Origin: Alphaproteobacteria bacterium
GTDB taxonomy: Bacteria > Pseudomonadota > Alphaproteobacteria > Micavibrionales > Micavibrionaceae
Direction: 5' to 3'
NCBI GenBank assembly: GCA_024275825.1
Contig: JAJRYK010000023.1
Span: forward strand, 1 to 64,000
Length of the DNA stretch: 64,000 bases
Shown here: piece after piece, positions 15,494 through 61,406 of the stretch
Layout: each line of letters opens with the position of its first letter
Numbering within the stretch: the stretch's first letter is position 1
The notes under the pieces: generated by a model
The model's database searches: none
What the model saw: the letters and a program-made list of their open reading frames with translations, nothing else
What the model was told of the DNA's origin: nothing
Program-made: the position numbers and the translations under genes

Positions 15494-15724
15494 GTCATCC
15501 CCGCGGCAGCGCGTGAGCACTGCTGTAGTAATTTCGATTAAAAAATACCTCACAGATACCGTCATTACACGGCCTGTCCGTGTAATCCATCGTCTAACAT
15601 GGATTGCACGAATAAATCGTGCAATGACGAGTATGAAAAAATGTTCAATTTTTAATTGAAATTACTATAAAATGGCGGGGGTTCCGGATGTATAAGCGAG
15701 GCGTTGCCTCGCCTCCGGGATGAC
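15494..15724. repeat. Nested composite palindrome: GTCATCC-type repeat enclosing a family A copy
   Basis: The outer ends are GTCATCCCCGCGG at 15494 and CCTCCGGGATGAC at 15724. Inside lies a second inverted pair, TAGTAATTTCGATTAAAAA near 15535 and TTTTTAATTGAAATTACTA near 15648. At the centre is family A copy 2. The order looks like one repeat inserted into another. Confidence 0.75.
15560..15629. repeat. Palindromic intergenic repeat, family A, copy 2
   Basis: Seventy bases running CGTCATTACACGG...CGTGCAATGACG, made of two hairpins (TTACACGG/CCGTGTAA and TTGCACGA/TCGTGCAA) joined by ATCCAT...ATGGAT. The right half is almost identical to that of copy 3 at 50689-50758. Confidence 0.9.
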
Positions 15725-50688: not shown

Positions 50689-50758
50689 CGTCATTACACG
50701 GCTCGTCCGTGTAATCTACGTTCAGCCGTGGATTGCACGAATAAATCGTGCAATGACG
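50689..50758. repeat. Palindromic intergenic repeat, family A, copy 3
   Basis: Seventy bases CGTCATTACACGG...CGTGCAATGACG. The right 30 bases are the same as in copy 2 at 15560-15629; the left half differs by a few bases. Confidence 0.9.
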
Positions 50759-54941: not shown

Positions 54942-55030
54942 ACCACAAAGCCTCAAAGCACACAAAAAATCACAAAGAAAAAGGATTCAAAAAACTTTGT
55001 GATTCTTAGAGATCTTTGTGCCTTTGTGGT
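54942..55030. repeat. ACCACAAAG...CTTTGTGGT palindrome between nuoE and nuoF
   Basis: ACCACAAAGCCTCAAAGCACACAAA pairs with TTTGTGCCTTTGTGGT and inner TCACAAAG/CTTTGTGA arms. It occupies the gap between nuoE and nuoF and is close in sequence to the copy between purQ and purL. Confidence 0.8.
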
Positions 55031-57122: not shown

Positions 57123-57998
57123 CTATCCAAAATACCGCGCTGCATTCTTAAACAGTGCCATGCCATCCGCTATTTCCGGTAAATCTTTGCCTTCGCGCTG
57201 GGCTTTGTCTTTCAGCTCGTGATAATCGTCGCGTTGCCAGGGGAACATGCCGCGTTCGGGGTGGGGCATTATGGCTAGGATTCGGCCGGTTTTGTCGGTT
57301 ATGGCGGCGATGTCGGAGAGGGAGCCGTTGGGGTTATAGGGGAATTGCCCGTTCGCCAACACCATTTTTTTGTCATCCCGTTGTAAAACGGGATCGGGGT
57401 GGTTTATGTCTCCCCGGTCCCGGCTTTCATCGGGATGACATTTAACGTACTGAAGCGCGATCTGGCCGTTTTTCTTTAGTGATTTCAGGGTTTTATCATC
57501 CATCATGAAGCGGCCTTCGCCGTGGGCTACGGGGATGTGCATGGATTTGATGCCGGCAAGCCATGGGGAATTGGTTTTGCTATTGGCCTTTACATCAACC
57601 CACCGGCATTGATAGCGCGCGGTTAGATTGTGCGTGACGGCGATTTTGCGCACGCCGAACGCTTTGTCAGAGCCGGGGATCAGGCCGAGATTGGCCATGA
57701 TCTGGCAGCCATTACAAACGCCGAGCATCAGCATGTCGCGCTCAAGAAACGTCCGCAGATCATCCCAGAGTGAGAGCTTCATTTTCTGCGCAAACGCATT
57801 GCCGGAGCCGGTATCATCGCCGTATGAGAACCCGCCGGGAATGACGAGGGTTTGATAATCGTTCAGCTCTGCCGGGTTTTCGATTATATCGTTAATATGG
57901 CGAATCACGCCATCCATGCCGACATGGTTAAAGGCGTGAAGCGTTTCCTCTTCACAGTTTAATCCGTATCCGGCGAGTATCAGGGCTTTTGCTGTCAT
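57123..57998 (-). CDS. purQ: Phosphoribosylformylglycinamidine synthase glutaminase subunit, with an in-frame repeat insertion
   Basis: PurQ releases ammonia from glutamine for the fourth step of purine synthesis. The class I amidotransferase triad is seen: Cys95 in 'MLGVCNGCQIM', and His and Glu in 'MPHPERGMFPW'. At 291 residues it belongs to the longer PurQ type. Residues about 187-209 ('CHPDESRDRGDINHPDPVLQ' region) are encoded by a palindromic repeat at 57372-57439, between 'QIALQYV' and 'MVLANGQFPYNPNGS', which are contiguous blocks in relatives. It precedes purL on the same strand direction (purL is transcribed first). Confidence 0.93.
   Translation of the reverse strand: MTAKALILAGYGLNCEEETLHAFNHVGMDGVIRHINDIIENPAELNDYQTLVIPGGFSYGDDTGSGNAFAQKMKLSLWDDLRTFLERDMLMLGVCNGCQIMANLGLIPGSDKAFGVRKIAVTHNLTARYQCRWVDVKANSKTNSPWLAGIKSMHIPVAHGEGRFMMDDKTLKSLKKNGQIALQYVKCHPDESRDRGDINHPDPVLQRDDKKMVLANGQFPYNPNGSLSDIAAITDKTGRILAIMPHPERGMFPWQRDDYHELKDKAQREGKDLPEIADGMALFKNAARYFG
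57372..57439. repeat. Palindromic repeat inside purQ, in frame
   Basis: GTCATCCCGTTG...TCATCGGGATGAC, with inner CCCGTT/AACGGG and CCCCGG-type arms. The ends match the intergenic copy at 14836-14920. The purQ frame passes through without a stop. Confidence 0.88.
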
Positions 57999-58035
57999 AA
58001 TTTACCGTTTTTATTTTTGAAGCACGAAGGTTTTT

Positions 58036-58131
58036 TTCACCACAAAGGCTCAAAGGACACAAAGGTTCTCAAAGAAAAAGAATTTAAAAACCTTTGTGAT
58101 TCTTTGTGTCCTTTGAGCCTTTGTGGTGAAA
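58036..58131. repeat. TTCACCACAAAGG...CCTTTGTGGTGAA palindrome between purL and purQ
   Basis: TTCACCACAAAGGCTCAAAG at the left matches CTTTGAGCCTTTGTGGTGAA at the right almost perfectly, continuing with GACACAAAG/CTTTGTGTC. It fills the gap between the purL stop and the purQ start. Confidence 0.9.
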
Positions 58132-58136
58132 TCATT

Positions 58137-61100
58137 TTAATAGTCTCTCAATGGCGCTTTGTAGGCCTCTTCTAATGCTTTAAGTTTTACGTCGAGTGTA
58201 TTGTTAATTATCAGTTTATCCTCTTCCGTAACCGTACCAATGCGGTAATAGCTGCCGAAGCTTTCCAGGCTTTGTTCGAAGGGCTCTTTGTGGGCTGGGG
58301 CGACGGTAACGAGGATGCGGCCGTTGCTTTCGGAGAAGAGGAGTTTGTCGGCGCGCAGGTCGCTGTTCAAACACTCCAGATCAATCTCCATCCCCATTTG
58401 CCCGGCAATGGCTTTTTTCGCTAGCGCAACGCCTAGCCCGCCAAAGCCAACGCCGATGGCCGAAGCGATGTAGCGCTCTCTCGCGATTTTGCTATAGAGC
58501 GCGTAAAGCTGCGCATTCTTTTCGCCGTCGACTTGTGGAACGTTTTGCCCCAAATGTCCGTGATGATCGTAATATTCGCTGCCGCCCAGCTCGTCCCTGG
58601 TTTCGCCCAGAAGATAGATGAAATCGCCGGCCGCCTTGGGCGCGGGCGATATCGATTGCTCCACATTCGGGATAACGCCGATGGAGGATATGAGAAGGGT
58701 GGGCGGGGCGGAGATTTTCACCGGCTGCCCGTCTGCATCAAAGCCTTTAAAGTCGTTGAACATGCTGTCCTTGCCAGAGATAAAGGGCGCTTTATAAAGC
58801 ACGGCAAGCTCATAAATAGCCTCGGCTGCGCGTTTTAGCTGATAAAGACGCTCCGGCTCATCCGAGGAGCACCAACAGAAATTATCCAGCAGGGCGAGGT
58901 GGTTGTAATCCACCCCTGCCGCCACCGCGTTGCGCACCGCCATATCCAGCGCGCTTGCCGCCATGTGGTAGCAATCAATATCGCCATAGCGCGGGGCAAG
59001 GCCTTGAGACAGCACAACGCCCTTGGGCGAGGTGAGCAGCGGGCGGGAAATGCTGGTCTCGCCATAGAGCCGCCCCGGCCCCTGAATAGGGCCAAGAACG
59101 GCGGAGCCTTGCACATTATGGTCGTATTGGGTTGCAATAAATTCCTTGGAGCAGATATTGAGGCGGGAAAGCATTTGCAGGAGCATAGTATCTAGAAAGC
59201 TGTCTTCCCCGCGAAAGCGGGGACCTTTCTTCAGTGCACTCAGGTCCCCGCTTTCGCGGGGAACGCACAATATATCAGGCTCCGGCTCACCGCCCTTAAT
59301 GGGTACAGTTTTCAGCGGCGTTTCGGGCAATCCGTCATGCAGGAAATCCATCTCCATATCCATGATGGTTTGGCCGTTATAGGTAATGTGCGAGCGGCCT
59401 GTGTCGGTGTAGGTGCCGATCACTGTGGCTTCAACGCCGCGCCGTGCCATAAGCTCTATTATTTTATCGGTATTTTTCGGCGGTACGGAGAGCGTCATGC
59501 GCTCCTGACTTTCGGAAATCCAGATTTCCCACGGCGCCATGCCGGGGTATTTCAGCGGCACTTTTTCCAGCTCCAGATGAAAGCCGCCAGACTGTTCTGC
59601 CATTTCGCCAACTGAAGATGACAGGCCGCCTGCGCCGTTATCGGTGATGGCGCTATACCAGCTATCGCCATTGGAATCGGACTTGCCGCGTAGCTCTTTG
59701 ATAATCGCATCGCTGAATTTCTTTTGCGTGATCGGGTCGCCGATTTGTACGGCGGTGGCGGGGGAGCCTTCATCAAGCGCGACAGAGCTAAACGTCGCGC
59801 CGTGAATGCCATCGCGGCCAACGCGCCCGCCAATCATCATGATTTTATCGCCGGGGTTGGCGCATTTCTCATGGCTGAGCTTGTCATTAATCATGCGCGG
59901 CATCAGGCCGATTGTGCCGACAAAGACTAGTGGCTTGCCGACATAGCGATCATCGAAATAGGCAAAGCCCTGCGGCGTTGGGATGCCGGATTGATTGCCG
60001 CCTGCCTCAACGCCAGCTACCACGCCGTTCATGATGGTTTCCGGGGAAAGGATGGGCGTTGTGAGATTTTTATCGCGGTAATACTCGAATCTGGGGACAG
60101 TTACTTTTTCAATGTCGCTATGCTGGTTATTTTCAGAGTCTTTGCCCTGAAAAAGTAACTGTCCCCGGCTTGCAGGGACAGGCGCGAGGCAATAGCCATA
60201 GCGGTTTATCACAGGTTTTGCGCCCATGCCAAAGCCCATGCAATCGCGATTTACGCCGACGATGCCGGTGATCGAACCGCCGAACGGATCGAGCGCAGAA
60301 GGGGAGTTGTGAGTCTCTACCTTGTCGGTAATCAGCCAGTCTTCGTCAAACACAATCCCGCCTGCATTATCGGAAAAGACAGAGAGGCAGAAATCCCCGT
60401 CAATTTCATCATTCCATCCATTTTTGCTTTCTCCACCCTTGCTTTCCCCGTGCAAACGGGGATCTTCCGCTGGTGAGGAAACAGGTCCCCGTTTGCACGG
60501 GGAAAGCAGCCTGGCTTGACGCGCCGCACGAATGTCCTGCGTGGCGCGCTTGATGTAATGCTTGTAAATCCCGTCCTTGATCTCATCAATGGAGGAGGCG
60601 AAAATGGTGTGTTTGCAATGCTCCGACCATGTTTGCGCGATGGTTTCCAGCTCAATATCCTTTGGCGCGCGGCCTTCGGTTTTAGCAAAATATTCTTGAA
60701 CAGCTTTCATATAGAGCAGGGACATGCCCAGCGGCCCGCGGCGAGAGCCATCGGCATTTGCGATTCCCTTATCGCCAATTTCGATCAGTGCCTCGTCAGA
60801 GATGTTTAGATCAACATCATCCGCCGCCGTTGTGCCTTCATGTTCTAGCGTGACGTTTGGCACAATAACGTCCATGCCGCCATCGGCCTCGAATTCATCG
60901 CGGGTTTTGATCGAAGCGCGCTGGATCAGGCTGTTTGATAGCTGCGCCGCCAGTAATTCGATATCGCTGCGCTCTAAATCTCCCGTGATCAGATAGAGGC
61001 GGGAGGAATAAACTTTATTGCTTTCCCCGCGAAAGCGGGGATCTTCTTGCGGCTTCAGGCTTCCGTTCTCACGAGGAAAGCAGGAAGAGGAGAGTTCGAG

Positions 61101-61406
61101 AAGTTCCTCCACCGTATGTCCTATATTATCCGTCACGCCGGGTAAGAAGCCAATTTCCAGCGCCCAATCGAATTTTAAATCTATGGTGTCATTCCCGCTT
61201 TCGCAGGGATGACGTATGAATGAAGACTGCGTCACCGGGTTGGTCACACTGCCGATTAAAACCGGGTCCATAATGGCCGCATTATCAGATGTATAAACAT
61301 CCACAACCCGCACGCTGGCGGGCTTATCCAGCGCGCTAAGCGCCCCCTCAATAATTTTCGCCCGACCATCGTCTTCGTGGGCTAGGATTTCTATTCTGTA
61401 TGACAT
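58137..61406 (-). CDS. purL: Phosphoribosylformylglycinamidine synthase, PurS-PurL fused form, with five in-frame repeat insertions
   Basis: PurL makes FGAM from FGAR using ATP and ammonia from PurQ. Residues 1-110 resemble PurS ('MSYRIEILAHEDDGRAKIIEG', 'LPGVTDNIGHTVEELL'); the rest is PurL: 'IAQTWSEHCKHTIF', 'VETHNSPSALDPFGGSITGIVGVNRD', 'DRYVGKPLVFVGTIG', 'ITDNGAGGLSSSVGEMA', 'HYYRI'-type end. The 1089 residues exceed the expected size by about 100. The excess maps to repeat-encoded peptides at residues about 65-73, 109-130, 300-322, 414-438 and 715-735, at junctions between conserved blocks. The frame is open throughout, so the protein is probably made and active. Confidence 0.93.
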   Translation of the reverse strand: MSYRIEILAHEDDGRAKIIEGALSALDKPASVRVVDVYTSDNAAIMDPVLIGSVTNPVTQSSFIRHPCESGNDTIDLKFDWALEIGFLPGVTDNIGHTVEELLELSSSCFPRENGSLKPQEDPRFRGESNKVYSSRLYLITGDLERSDIELLAAQLSNSLIQRASIKTRDEFEADGGMDVIVPNVTLEHEGTTAADDVDLNISDEALIEIGDKGIANADGSRRGPLGMSLLYMKAVQEYFAKTEGRAPKDIELETIAQTWSEHCKHTIFASSIDEIKDGIYKHYIKRATQDIRAARQARLLSPCKRGPVSSPAEDPRLHGESKGGESKNGWNDEIDGDFCLSVFSDNAGGIVFDEDWLITDKVETHNSPSALDPFGGSITGIVGVNRDCMGFGMGAKPVINRYGYCLAPVPASRGQLLFQGKDSENNQHSDIEKVTVPRFEYYRDKNLTTPILSPETIMNGVVAGVEAGGNQSGIPTPQGFAYFDDRYVGKPLVFVGTIGLMPRMINDKLSHEKCANPGDKIMMIGGRVGRDGIHGATFSSVALDEGSPATAVQIGDPITQKKFSDAIIKELRGKSDSNGDSWYSAITDNGAGGLSSSVGEMAEQSGGFHLELEKVPLKYPGMAPWEIWISESQERMTLSVPPKNTDKIIELMARRGVEATVIGTYTDTGRSHITYNGQTIMDMEMDFLHDGLPETPLKTVPIKGGEPEPDILCVPRESGDLSALKKGPRFRGEDSFLDTMLLQMLSRLNICSKEFIATQYDHNVQGSAVLGPIQGPGRLYGETSISRPLLTSPKGVVLSQGLAPRYGDIDCYHMAASALDMAVRNAVAAGVDYNHLALLDNFCWCSSDEPERLYQLKRAAEAIYELAVLYKAPFISGKDSMFNDFKGFDADGQPVKISAPPTLLISSIGVIPNVEQSISPAPKAAGDFIYLLGETRDELGGSEYYDHHGHLGQNVPQVDGEKNAQLYALYSKIARERYIASAIGVGFGGLGVALAKKAIAGQMGMEIDLECLNSDLRADKLLFSESNGRILVTVAPAHKEPFEQSLESFGSYYRIGTVTEEDKLIINNTLDVKLKALEEAYKAPLRDY
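59203..59264. repeat. Palindromic repeat inside purL, copy near residue 725
   Basis: CTTCCCCGCGAAAGCGGGGACC and GGTCCCCGCTTTCGCGGGGAAC are inverted around a short centre. Read in the purL frame it gives 'VPRESGDLSALKKGPRFRGE'. Confidence 0.93.
60093..60166. repeat. GGGGACAGTTAC palindrome inside purL (19-bp perfect arms)
   Basis: GGGGACAGTTACTTTTTCA and TGAAAAAGTAACTGTCCCC are exact reverse complements separated by 36 bases. This is a different family from the other purL insertions. Read in frame it gives 'GQLLFQGKDSENNQHSDIEK' and a few more residues. Confidence 0.95.
60441..60507. repeat. Palindromic repeat inside purL, copy near residue 310
   Basis: GCTTTCCCCGTGCAAACGGGGATC and GGTCCCCGTTTGCACGGGGAAAGC are inverted. 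In frame it reads 'SPCKRGPVSSPAEDPRLHGE'. Confidence 0.93.
61019..61082. repeat. Palindromic repeat inside purL, copy near residue 120
   Basis: GCTTTCCCCGCGAAAGCGGGGATC at the left; the right arm has diverged (TTCCGTTCTCACGAGGAAAGC). In frame it reads 'CFPRENGSLKPQEDPRFRGE'. Confidence 0.88.
61188..61213. repeat. Short palindromic repeat half inside purL, near residue 69
   Basis: GTCATTCCCGCTTTCGCAGGGATGAC is a single imperfect hairpin with the family's GTCAT...ATGAC ends. In frame it reads 'RHPCESGNDT'. Confidence 0.8.

Follow-up and report, generated by a model that had tools for sequence, protein, structure and literature searches.

The purL gene in this alphaproteobacterial genome contains five palindromic inserts, all of which lie in frame inside a single open reading frame, and three of which appear to belong to a repeat family that also brackets a gene for a small GIY-YIG nuclease on another contig. 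We propose, with a probability of roughly 0.7 and on the basis of comparative sequence analysis, that these inserts are mobile palindromes of a short, non-autonomous kind, and that the REP-bracketed GIY-YIG gene is a mobile element, here termed a 'GIY-YIG REPtron'. The window (the whole 64,000 nt stretch analysed, G000:C16:1-64000) is part of a 1.92 Mb source genome, G000, assembled in 55 contigs; G, C and L followed by a number denote genomes, contigs and loci respectively, and f1 denotes the family. The features discussed are listed in Table 1.

Table 1. Genes and repeats discussed in the text. Positions are those of the window unless a contig or locus is named; columns are those of the core PurL alignment.
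Feature	Position	Strand	Description
purL	58137..61406	minus	1089 aa ORF; carries five in-frame palindromic inserts
purQ	57123..57998	minus	291 aa
Insert a	61187..61214	minus	single CGTC-1-type REP, CGTC-ATCCCTGC-GAAA-GCGGGAAT-GACA; peptide RHPCESGND; adjacent columns 60 and 67 used in G010 and G117
Insert b	61019..61082	minus	inverted doublet, one arm degraded; peptide CFPRENGSLKPQEDPRFRGES; column 99, also used in G010, G028, G116 and G117
Insert c	60440..60508	minus	inverted doublet CTGCTTTCCCCGTGCAAACGGGGACCTGTTT...; peptide LLSPCKRGPVSSPAEDPRLHGESK; columns 266-269, also used in G028, G058 and G087
Insert d	60093..60166	minus	GGGGACAGTTACTTTTTCA (GGGGACAG...) inverted repeat, in frame; peptide RGQLLFQGKDSENNQHSDIEKVTVP
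Insert e	59203..59264	minus	inverted doublet of TTCCCCGCGAAAGCGGGGACCT unit; peptide VPRESGDLSALKKGPRFRGE; same column used in G117
purQ insert	57371..57440	minus	CGTC-type inverted doublet in frame; peptide CHPDESRDRGDINHPDPVLQRDDK
Intergenic CGTC-type doublet	50689..50758	.	ordinary, for comparison; tags outward
Further intergenic CGTC-type doublets	166-258; 15560-15629		
Long imperfect palindromes	58035-58131 and 54942-55030; L127 5608-5675; L139 9812-9906		one between purL and purQ
GIY-YIG nuclease gene	G000:C22:3874-4186		bracketed by purL-type unit, present at both sides
Direct repeat	L246		34 nt, perfect
Direct repeat	L241		34 nt, four differences; start of nuoE-like gene
Direct repeat	L257		17 nt, perfect; right-hand element end approximate
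Direct repeat	L247		20 nt, one difference; right-hand element end approximate

Three palindromes had been described in purL in the initial annotation, and these were found where it placed them; the gene in fact has five, and a sixth lies in frame in purQ. Inserts b, c and e do share a family, as had been claimed, whilst the five together represent three repeat classes. Insert a has the layout that defines CGTC-1 repeats when read on the coding strand (a CGTC or TGTC tag, an 8 bp stem starting AT and a 4 nt loop), with one mismatch in the stem; the CGTC-1 tail is short, unpaired and mostly CCA, and that of insert a reads GACACCA, with the CCA coming only four bases further on. No CGTC, TGTC or CCTC tag was found in inserts b, c and e, the outer ends of which are TGCTTTCC or GTTCCCC, and the stem and loop of which resemble those of CGTC-1. 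The palindrome of insert e (59205-59263) has perfect 22 bp arms around a 15 nt spacer, and that of insert c has perfect 23 bp arms around a 23 nt spacer; the arms of insert b, read by eye, are imperfect, and its ends are approximate. Insert d fits the GGGGWSAS motif that is given for RAYT-like TIRs in PMC3733652, and its palindrome-less form is shared with G001, a genome of the same genus. The one reading frame claimed for the three copies holds for the right arm in all of them (GPRFRGE, DPRLHGE and DPRFRGE), but for the left arm in only two, that of the middle copy (insert c) being one base out of frame and reading SPCKRGP. No recognisable stretch of nuclease gene was found in the spacers of the purL inserts, nor were direct repeats evident by eye around them, their exact insertion ends not being definable.

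In a 391 kb sample, 26 inverted repeats reached the detection threshold, compared with none in one 3-mer-block shuffle, and 11 of the 26 fell inside ORFs of at least 100 aa, some of which may be spurious. Peptides encoded by in-frame palindromes were also observed in a CobT-like ORF (SSRAKPRDLSPQTESEDPSTSLRFGRDD; L133 8387-10325; 645 aa), a DXS-like ORF (N-terminal RGEGWGEG..LPHPSPLPKGRG; L138 10128-12057; 642 aa) and a BamB-like lipoprotein ORF (N-terminal RHPRRFSSLSFAAGMT; L125 16025-17381); the names cobT, dxs and bamB are our own reading, made without a family search, and in the N-terminal cases the true start may be downstream. Palindromes of another family, long and imperfect, recur between genes (CCACAAAG...CTTTGTGG and variants with CCACAGAG or CCACTAAG).

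The purL product matches Pfam AIRS_C above the cut-off, and its best matches are the NCBIfam PurL models, yet these fall under their own cut-offs. Its nearest PurL sequences come from Micavibrio-like alphaproteobacterial MAGs. Proteins of this type are around 965 aa long, with a separate PurQ (window 58137-61406; L025-L076), and the next-closest relatives of the type are mostly from MAGs of Patescibacteria and DPANN archaea, at 44-51% in the best segment, which suggests either horizontal transfer of the purine enzyme or mis-binned contigs. At 1089 aa, as against 961-1007 aa in 16 named relatives, the protein has an excess of approximately 120 residues; the core alignment assigns 110 non-core residues to the five inserts, rather than the 65 or so first estimated.

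This PurL type was detected at an E value of 1e-100 or better in 55 of 104 genomes of the family, and 54 of the proteins were aligned, a fragment in G106 being left out; 53 of these were used to construct a tree. Counting only those of at least 8 aa, 29 inserts interrupt the 967 core columns. Ten of these, all 8 aa long and at column 67, were considered as repeats and rejected as native variation lacking palindromes. The other 19 are distributed across eight genomes at columns 60-67, 99, 266-269, 345, 612-619 and 893, amounting to six or seven sites, while 46 of the 54 proteins have no non-native insert at all. The possibility, raised beforehand, that the extra residues are conserved sequence in relatives was not borne out. 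G001 lacks inserts at four of the five sites. When palindrome scores were compared with those of stretches of matching length from the same gene, 16 of the 19 non-native inserts had a score attained by no more than 3% of the stretches (the exceptions being those at column 62 in G000, column 67 in G117 and column 345 in G001), as against none of the ten native ones. As regards assembly error, separate assemblies of other species have different palindromes at these purL sites. The likeness to the Rickettsia RPEs that had been pointed out is upheld, with palindromes present in the open frame of a conserved housekeeping gene and missing from most homologues.

Palindromes with no relation to one another occupy the same loops in different genera; the peptides at column 99, for instance, are FPRENGSLKPQEDPRFRG in G000, ERSEGSHAIKPGDPSVAPLPQD in G010, PDESQDLKIPDQVRDA in G028 and SGEGRNLPDQKQEDPGLHRD in G117. 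Since unrelated repeat families re-use the same loops, coding regions appear to tolerate these repeats, which was one half of the suggestion in the initial annotation that a mobile repeat 'tolerates or exploits' them; nothing indicates the other half, exploitation or a function for the peptides. When the inserts were grouped by hand into 15 family-distinct events, look-alikes being counted once, 14 pairs lay within seven columns of one another, against 1.6 expected; one of 100,000 simulations reached 14, each column being given an equal chance, such that loop tolerance alone could explain the excess. In the tree, G000 and G001 adjoin G010, G116, G117 and G118, and because these are neighbours, the inserts that look alike in G000 and G116 (column 99), and likewise those in G000 and G117 (column 612), may each have been inherited from a common ancestor. 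The column 269 insert is common to G028 and G087, which are not neighbours, suggesting transfer or losses.

Two other proteins served as controls. No repeat-type insert of at least 8 aa was found among 31 aligned Lon proteins, out of 100 genomes with a match: a large apparent insert in G116 was rejected as a run of N, and an 11 aa N-terminal insert in L206 was not repeat-like by eye. In ParE, differences from the query amounted to eight codons at most (about 15 rows, judged by eye). An AlphaFold2 model of PurL based on 61 sequences had a mean pLDDT of 82 and a pTM of 0.85. Values below 50 occurred in all five inserts (residues 68-72, 109-113, 115-117, 119-126, 301-335, 413-438, 715-722 and 724-734), and outside them at 536-544 and 546-549; the predicted secondary structure of the inserts is mostly coil. 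These segments of the model fit the earlier suggestion that the peptides are located in surface loops, as all five probably are.

When the genome was searched with insert e, two copies of its unit were detected on contig C22, with a small GIY-YIG ORF in between. Allowing at most one mismatch, the purL unit (TTTCCCCGNGNRNNCGGGGA) has eight copies in the genome: five in purL, two on C22 and one on C43, the last of these belonging to a doublet that lies upstream of a uvrA-like ORF. No matching GIY-YIG element was found in this genome for inserts a and d. The product of the bracketed gene belongs to the GIY-YIG family PF01541, scoring above the cut-off, and the conserved Tyr, Tyr, Arg, Glu and Asn of the motif, which have a catalytic role, are present; the consensus of 64 such proteins is VYila...ngtlY.GvT.dl..R..eH......GFt.ky....LV..E.......Ai.REk..K.W.R.wK..lie..NP.W.Dl. 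We take this mobile-type nuclease to be COG2827-like, and the housekeeping type to be YhbQ. There were 5.25 PF01541 matches per genome where PurL has inserts and 3.2 where it does not (Mann-Whitney p 0.049), and six or more matches in 5 of 8 and 5 of 46 such genomes respectively (Fisher p 0.003), both uncorrected for kinship; these counts take in housekeeping and UvrC-type matches, and the link to PurL inserts is weak.

At the family loci that were read, a REP is found just upstream of the nuclease start codon and its inverted partner just past the stop, with the REPs themselves varying between loci. Bracketing was scored by locally aligning the upstream flank with the downstream one taken in reverse complement, using a cut-off of 12. 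Within f1, this was reached by 15 of 22 mobile-type loci, which were hand-picked, many of them from genomes with PurL inserts, but by none of 29 YhbQ-type loci, and bracketing as a property of all GIY-YIG genes was therefore rejected. Three loci do not enter the f1 scores: L219 because of its odd length, L214 because of a short flank and L250 because of a run of N. L240 and L245, YhbQ-like by regular expression, were relabelled as mobile-type by eye. Such a GIY-YIG protein is encoded, at an E value of 1e-12 or better, by 82 of 289 genomes from across the class. The best match from each of 30 of the 82, a non-random choice, was combined with 12 named plasmid-collection records chosen from 33; the resulting 42 loci include L300, which coincides with L138b of G000. 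The cut-off was reached by 32 of the 42, as against 10 of 600 when mock genes were positioned elsewhere within the class loci, and in 22 of the 42 the element's own partner outscored all 41 swapped ones. A CGTC/TGTC-type tag upstream with its complement downstream was seen at 34 of 47 bracketed loci, L250 included.

Named loci scoring at least 12 include those of Azospirillum lipoferum, where the element lies between sufB and sufC, Sinorhizobium meliloti, Novosphingobium aromaticivorans, Sphingobium, Shinella, Rhizobium CIAT894 and Aeromonas caviae. For Neisseria gonorrhoeae the score is 17, which four swapped flanks equal, and the REP tags point inward; Planktothrix reaches 12, Photobacterium 8 and Rhizobium K1/93 7. 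Scores under 12 were obtained for 10 of the 42 class-wide and named loci and for 7 of the 22 in f1; by eye, several of these seven have sequence resembling a REP on at least one side. ORFs of 226-498 aa extending over GIY-YIG genes were considered as in-frame fusions and rejected, as the extra residues look like GC-rich read-through. In L255, L257 and L247 the nuclease stop codon lies beyond the right-hand REP, which is translated as a C-terminal tail (APAFAGVT, PIPACAGMT and LIPASAGMT).

Several observations bear on whether these units move. Over 46 bracketed loci, from which L300 was left out, the similarity of the REPs co-varies with that of the nucleases (Mantel r 0.25, 0 of 2000 permutations), weakly so among distant nucleases (r 0.12, 45 of 1000 permutations). 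Direct repeats outside the element scored at least 14 at 8 of 56 loci, compared with 0.04 expected from swapped flanks; four of the eight (L259, L261, L269 and L270) are apparent nested repeats or neighbouring copies, and the others (L241, L246, L247 and L257) have repeats of 17-34 nt resembling target duplications. At the junction of nuoD and nuoE, names that are our own reading of the ORF ends, the two genes directly overlap in L309 and L310, the site being empty, whereas a REP-GIY-YIG-REP unit separates them in L308, L313 and L314. GIY-YIG elements with different REPs lie between nuoD-like and nuoE-like genes, on the nuo strand, in L308, L313, L314 and L312 (G010, G124, G087 and G030), with the nuoE side alone recognised in L312; elements may have landed here repeatedly, or the element may be old and its REPs quick to change. 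Up to ten matches were found per genome. In S. meliloti L261, positions 255-415 comprise a left REP and 116 nt derived from the element's right-hand end, and 111 of these 116 nt are identical to the adjacent full copy at 538-912; this internally deleted copy shows how gene-less doublets can originate. Sinorhizobium K101 (L317) has REP-like sequence without a nuclease gene at both places, and because such sequence stays behind it is best regarded as a reduced site rather than a clean empty one.

Free-standing GIY-YIG homing nucleases are known, which lends some weight to separate origins for the two components: the nuclease may home into existing REP doublets, an event that would also yield matched brackets, or the REPs may be terminators or hairpins of the nuclease mRNA. 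REPs are common between genes (17 of 23 CGTC-type units in the 391 kb sample), and at the S. meliloti place K101 retains REP sequence but no nuclease gene. This explanation nevertheless seems unlikely, given that housekeeping GIY-YIG genes are unbracketed, that the empty nuoD-nuoE junction is without the entire REP-gene-REP unit and that the direct repeats lie outside the REPs. Another candidate is a RAYT-type (Y1) tyrosine transposase, which would mobilise the palindromes as it does the GTAG REPs, leaving the GIY-YIG genes as passengers in REP pairs. RAYT and REP form the established model, insert d fits the RAYT-like motif given in PMC3733652 and the source genome has one Y1_Tnp match. This sole match is partial, however, covering positions 45-121 of the 121-position profile near a contig end (L139 141-431, G000:C33), and the adjacent hairpin (CTACCGGCC..GGCCGGTAG) differs in kind from both the purL and the CGTC repeats; nor did Di Nocera 2013 (PMC3733652) find any RAYT with CGTC flanks. 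Passenger genes would account neither for the co-variation of REP and nuclease nor for matched brackets with direct repeats outside them. RAYT was rejected as the mover of inserts b, c and e on these grounds, and we regard its involvement overall as quite improbable.

The peptides themselves might instead have been selected for PurL function, for example in regulation or in assembly with PurQ, with the repeats recruited to that end. The inserts are concentrated in PurL and not Lon, the loops are re-used, and another insert is present in purQ, which encodes the partner subunit. However, the same loops hold unrelated peptides, most PurL proteins in the family are insert-free, as is that of G001 at all but one site, and the insert segments are of low confidence in the model, making this reading very improbable indeed.

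Under the proposal that the palindromes derive from GIY-YIG elements, the full unit would consist of a single-domain, non-YhbQ nuclease gene between cognate inverted REPs, mostly CGTC-tagged. The nuclease may nick or cut its cognate REPs or the target DNA and so mobilise the unit, whether by copying it or by moving it, a long stretch of target being duplicated in the process; we infer such mobilisation, the bracketing being what was observed. Loss of the gene would give rise to REP doublets and solo REPs, and the internally deleted doublets could be moved in trans. Such doublets, and a single REP, would have landed in purL, inserts b, c and e coming from the family that brackets the gene on C22. 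They would survive where their length and frame keep the gene open and the loops tolerate extra residues, in-frame survival presumably being a matter of purifying selection and not of any function of the peptide.

REPINs are REP doublets, and the units described here are like REPtrons and REPINs in having a single gene flanked by inverted REPs, along with doublets of matching sequence that lack the gene. They differ in that the tags are mostly CGTC, that direct repeats of 17-34 nt occur at four places and that the bracketed gene encodes a GIY-YIG nuclease (PF01541), whereas the REPs of a RAYT-type REPtron flank a Y1 tyrosine transposase. Free-standing GIY-YIG homing endonucleases likewise have a lone nuclease gene per mobile unit, but here there are matched REP brackets, several copies at separate places in one genome and a gene-deleted derivative. 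The Rickettsia RPEs are similarly palindromes in frame in housekeeping genes, and insert a has the CGTC-1 layout of tag, 8 bp stem and 4 nt loop; going by the description of RPEs, purL is unlike them in having five inserts of three classes, three from an untagged unit, in loops re-used by unrelated families across genera, and in that the unit brackets a GIY-YIG gene.

According to PMC3733652 (Di Nocera, De Gregorio and Rocco 2013), which defines the CGTC-tagged REP super-family, the hosts include Micavibrio aeruginosavorus, RPE-4 corresponds to CGTC-4 and both RPE-6 and dRS3 to CGTC-1, intragenic REPs occur, and those in recB of two Xanthomonas lie at roughly the same site. The tag, the stem, the loop lengths, the inverted dimers, the alphaproteobacterial range and the intragenic copies all agree with the present repeats. 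That same text pairs a RAYT transposase with GTAG REPs in REPtrons, whereas CGTC REPs 'seem lacking a dedicated transposase', their REPtrons having been suggested to be lost early; here, by contrast, such repeats bracket a GIY-YIG nuclease gene. No published link between GIY-YIG and REP was found in the titles, term counts and abstract openings of the open-access papers listed, and earlier work elsewhere is possible; PMC9465073, the one listed paper with both terms, mentions them, in the passages concerned, as separate genes and a reference. In-frame REPs were already known; their source in GIY-YIG elements may be new.

A broader reading, which we hold to be evenly balanced, is that CGTC-type REPs, perhaps including the Rickettsia RPEs and Neisseria dRS3, are the termini and deletion derivatives of tiny, widespread mobile elements that encode only a matched GIY-YIG nuclease, duplicate 17-34 nt of target and seed in-frame loop peptides, as in PurL; our confidence in it is reduced because the bracket in Neisseria is weak. 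A GIY-YIG gene that matches and co-varies with the REP pairs around it in many alphaproteobacteria would provide a concrete candidate for the mover of CGTC REPs, a published open question, and these elements are a possible source of RPE-like in-frame peptides. PurL, with its six or seven re-used loops, would then constitute a natural record of repeats creating protein insertions.
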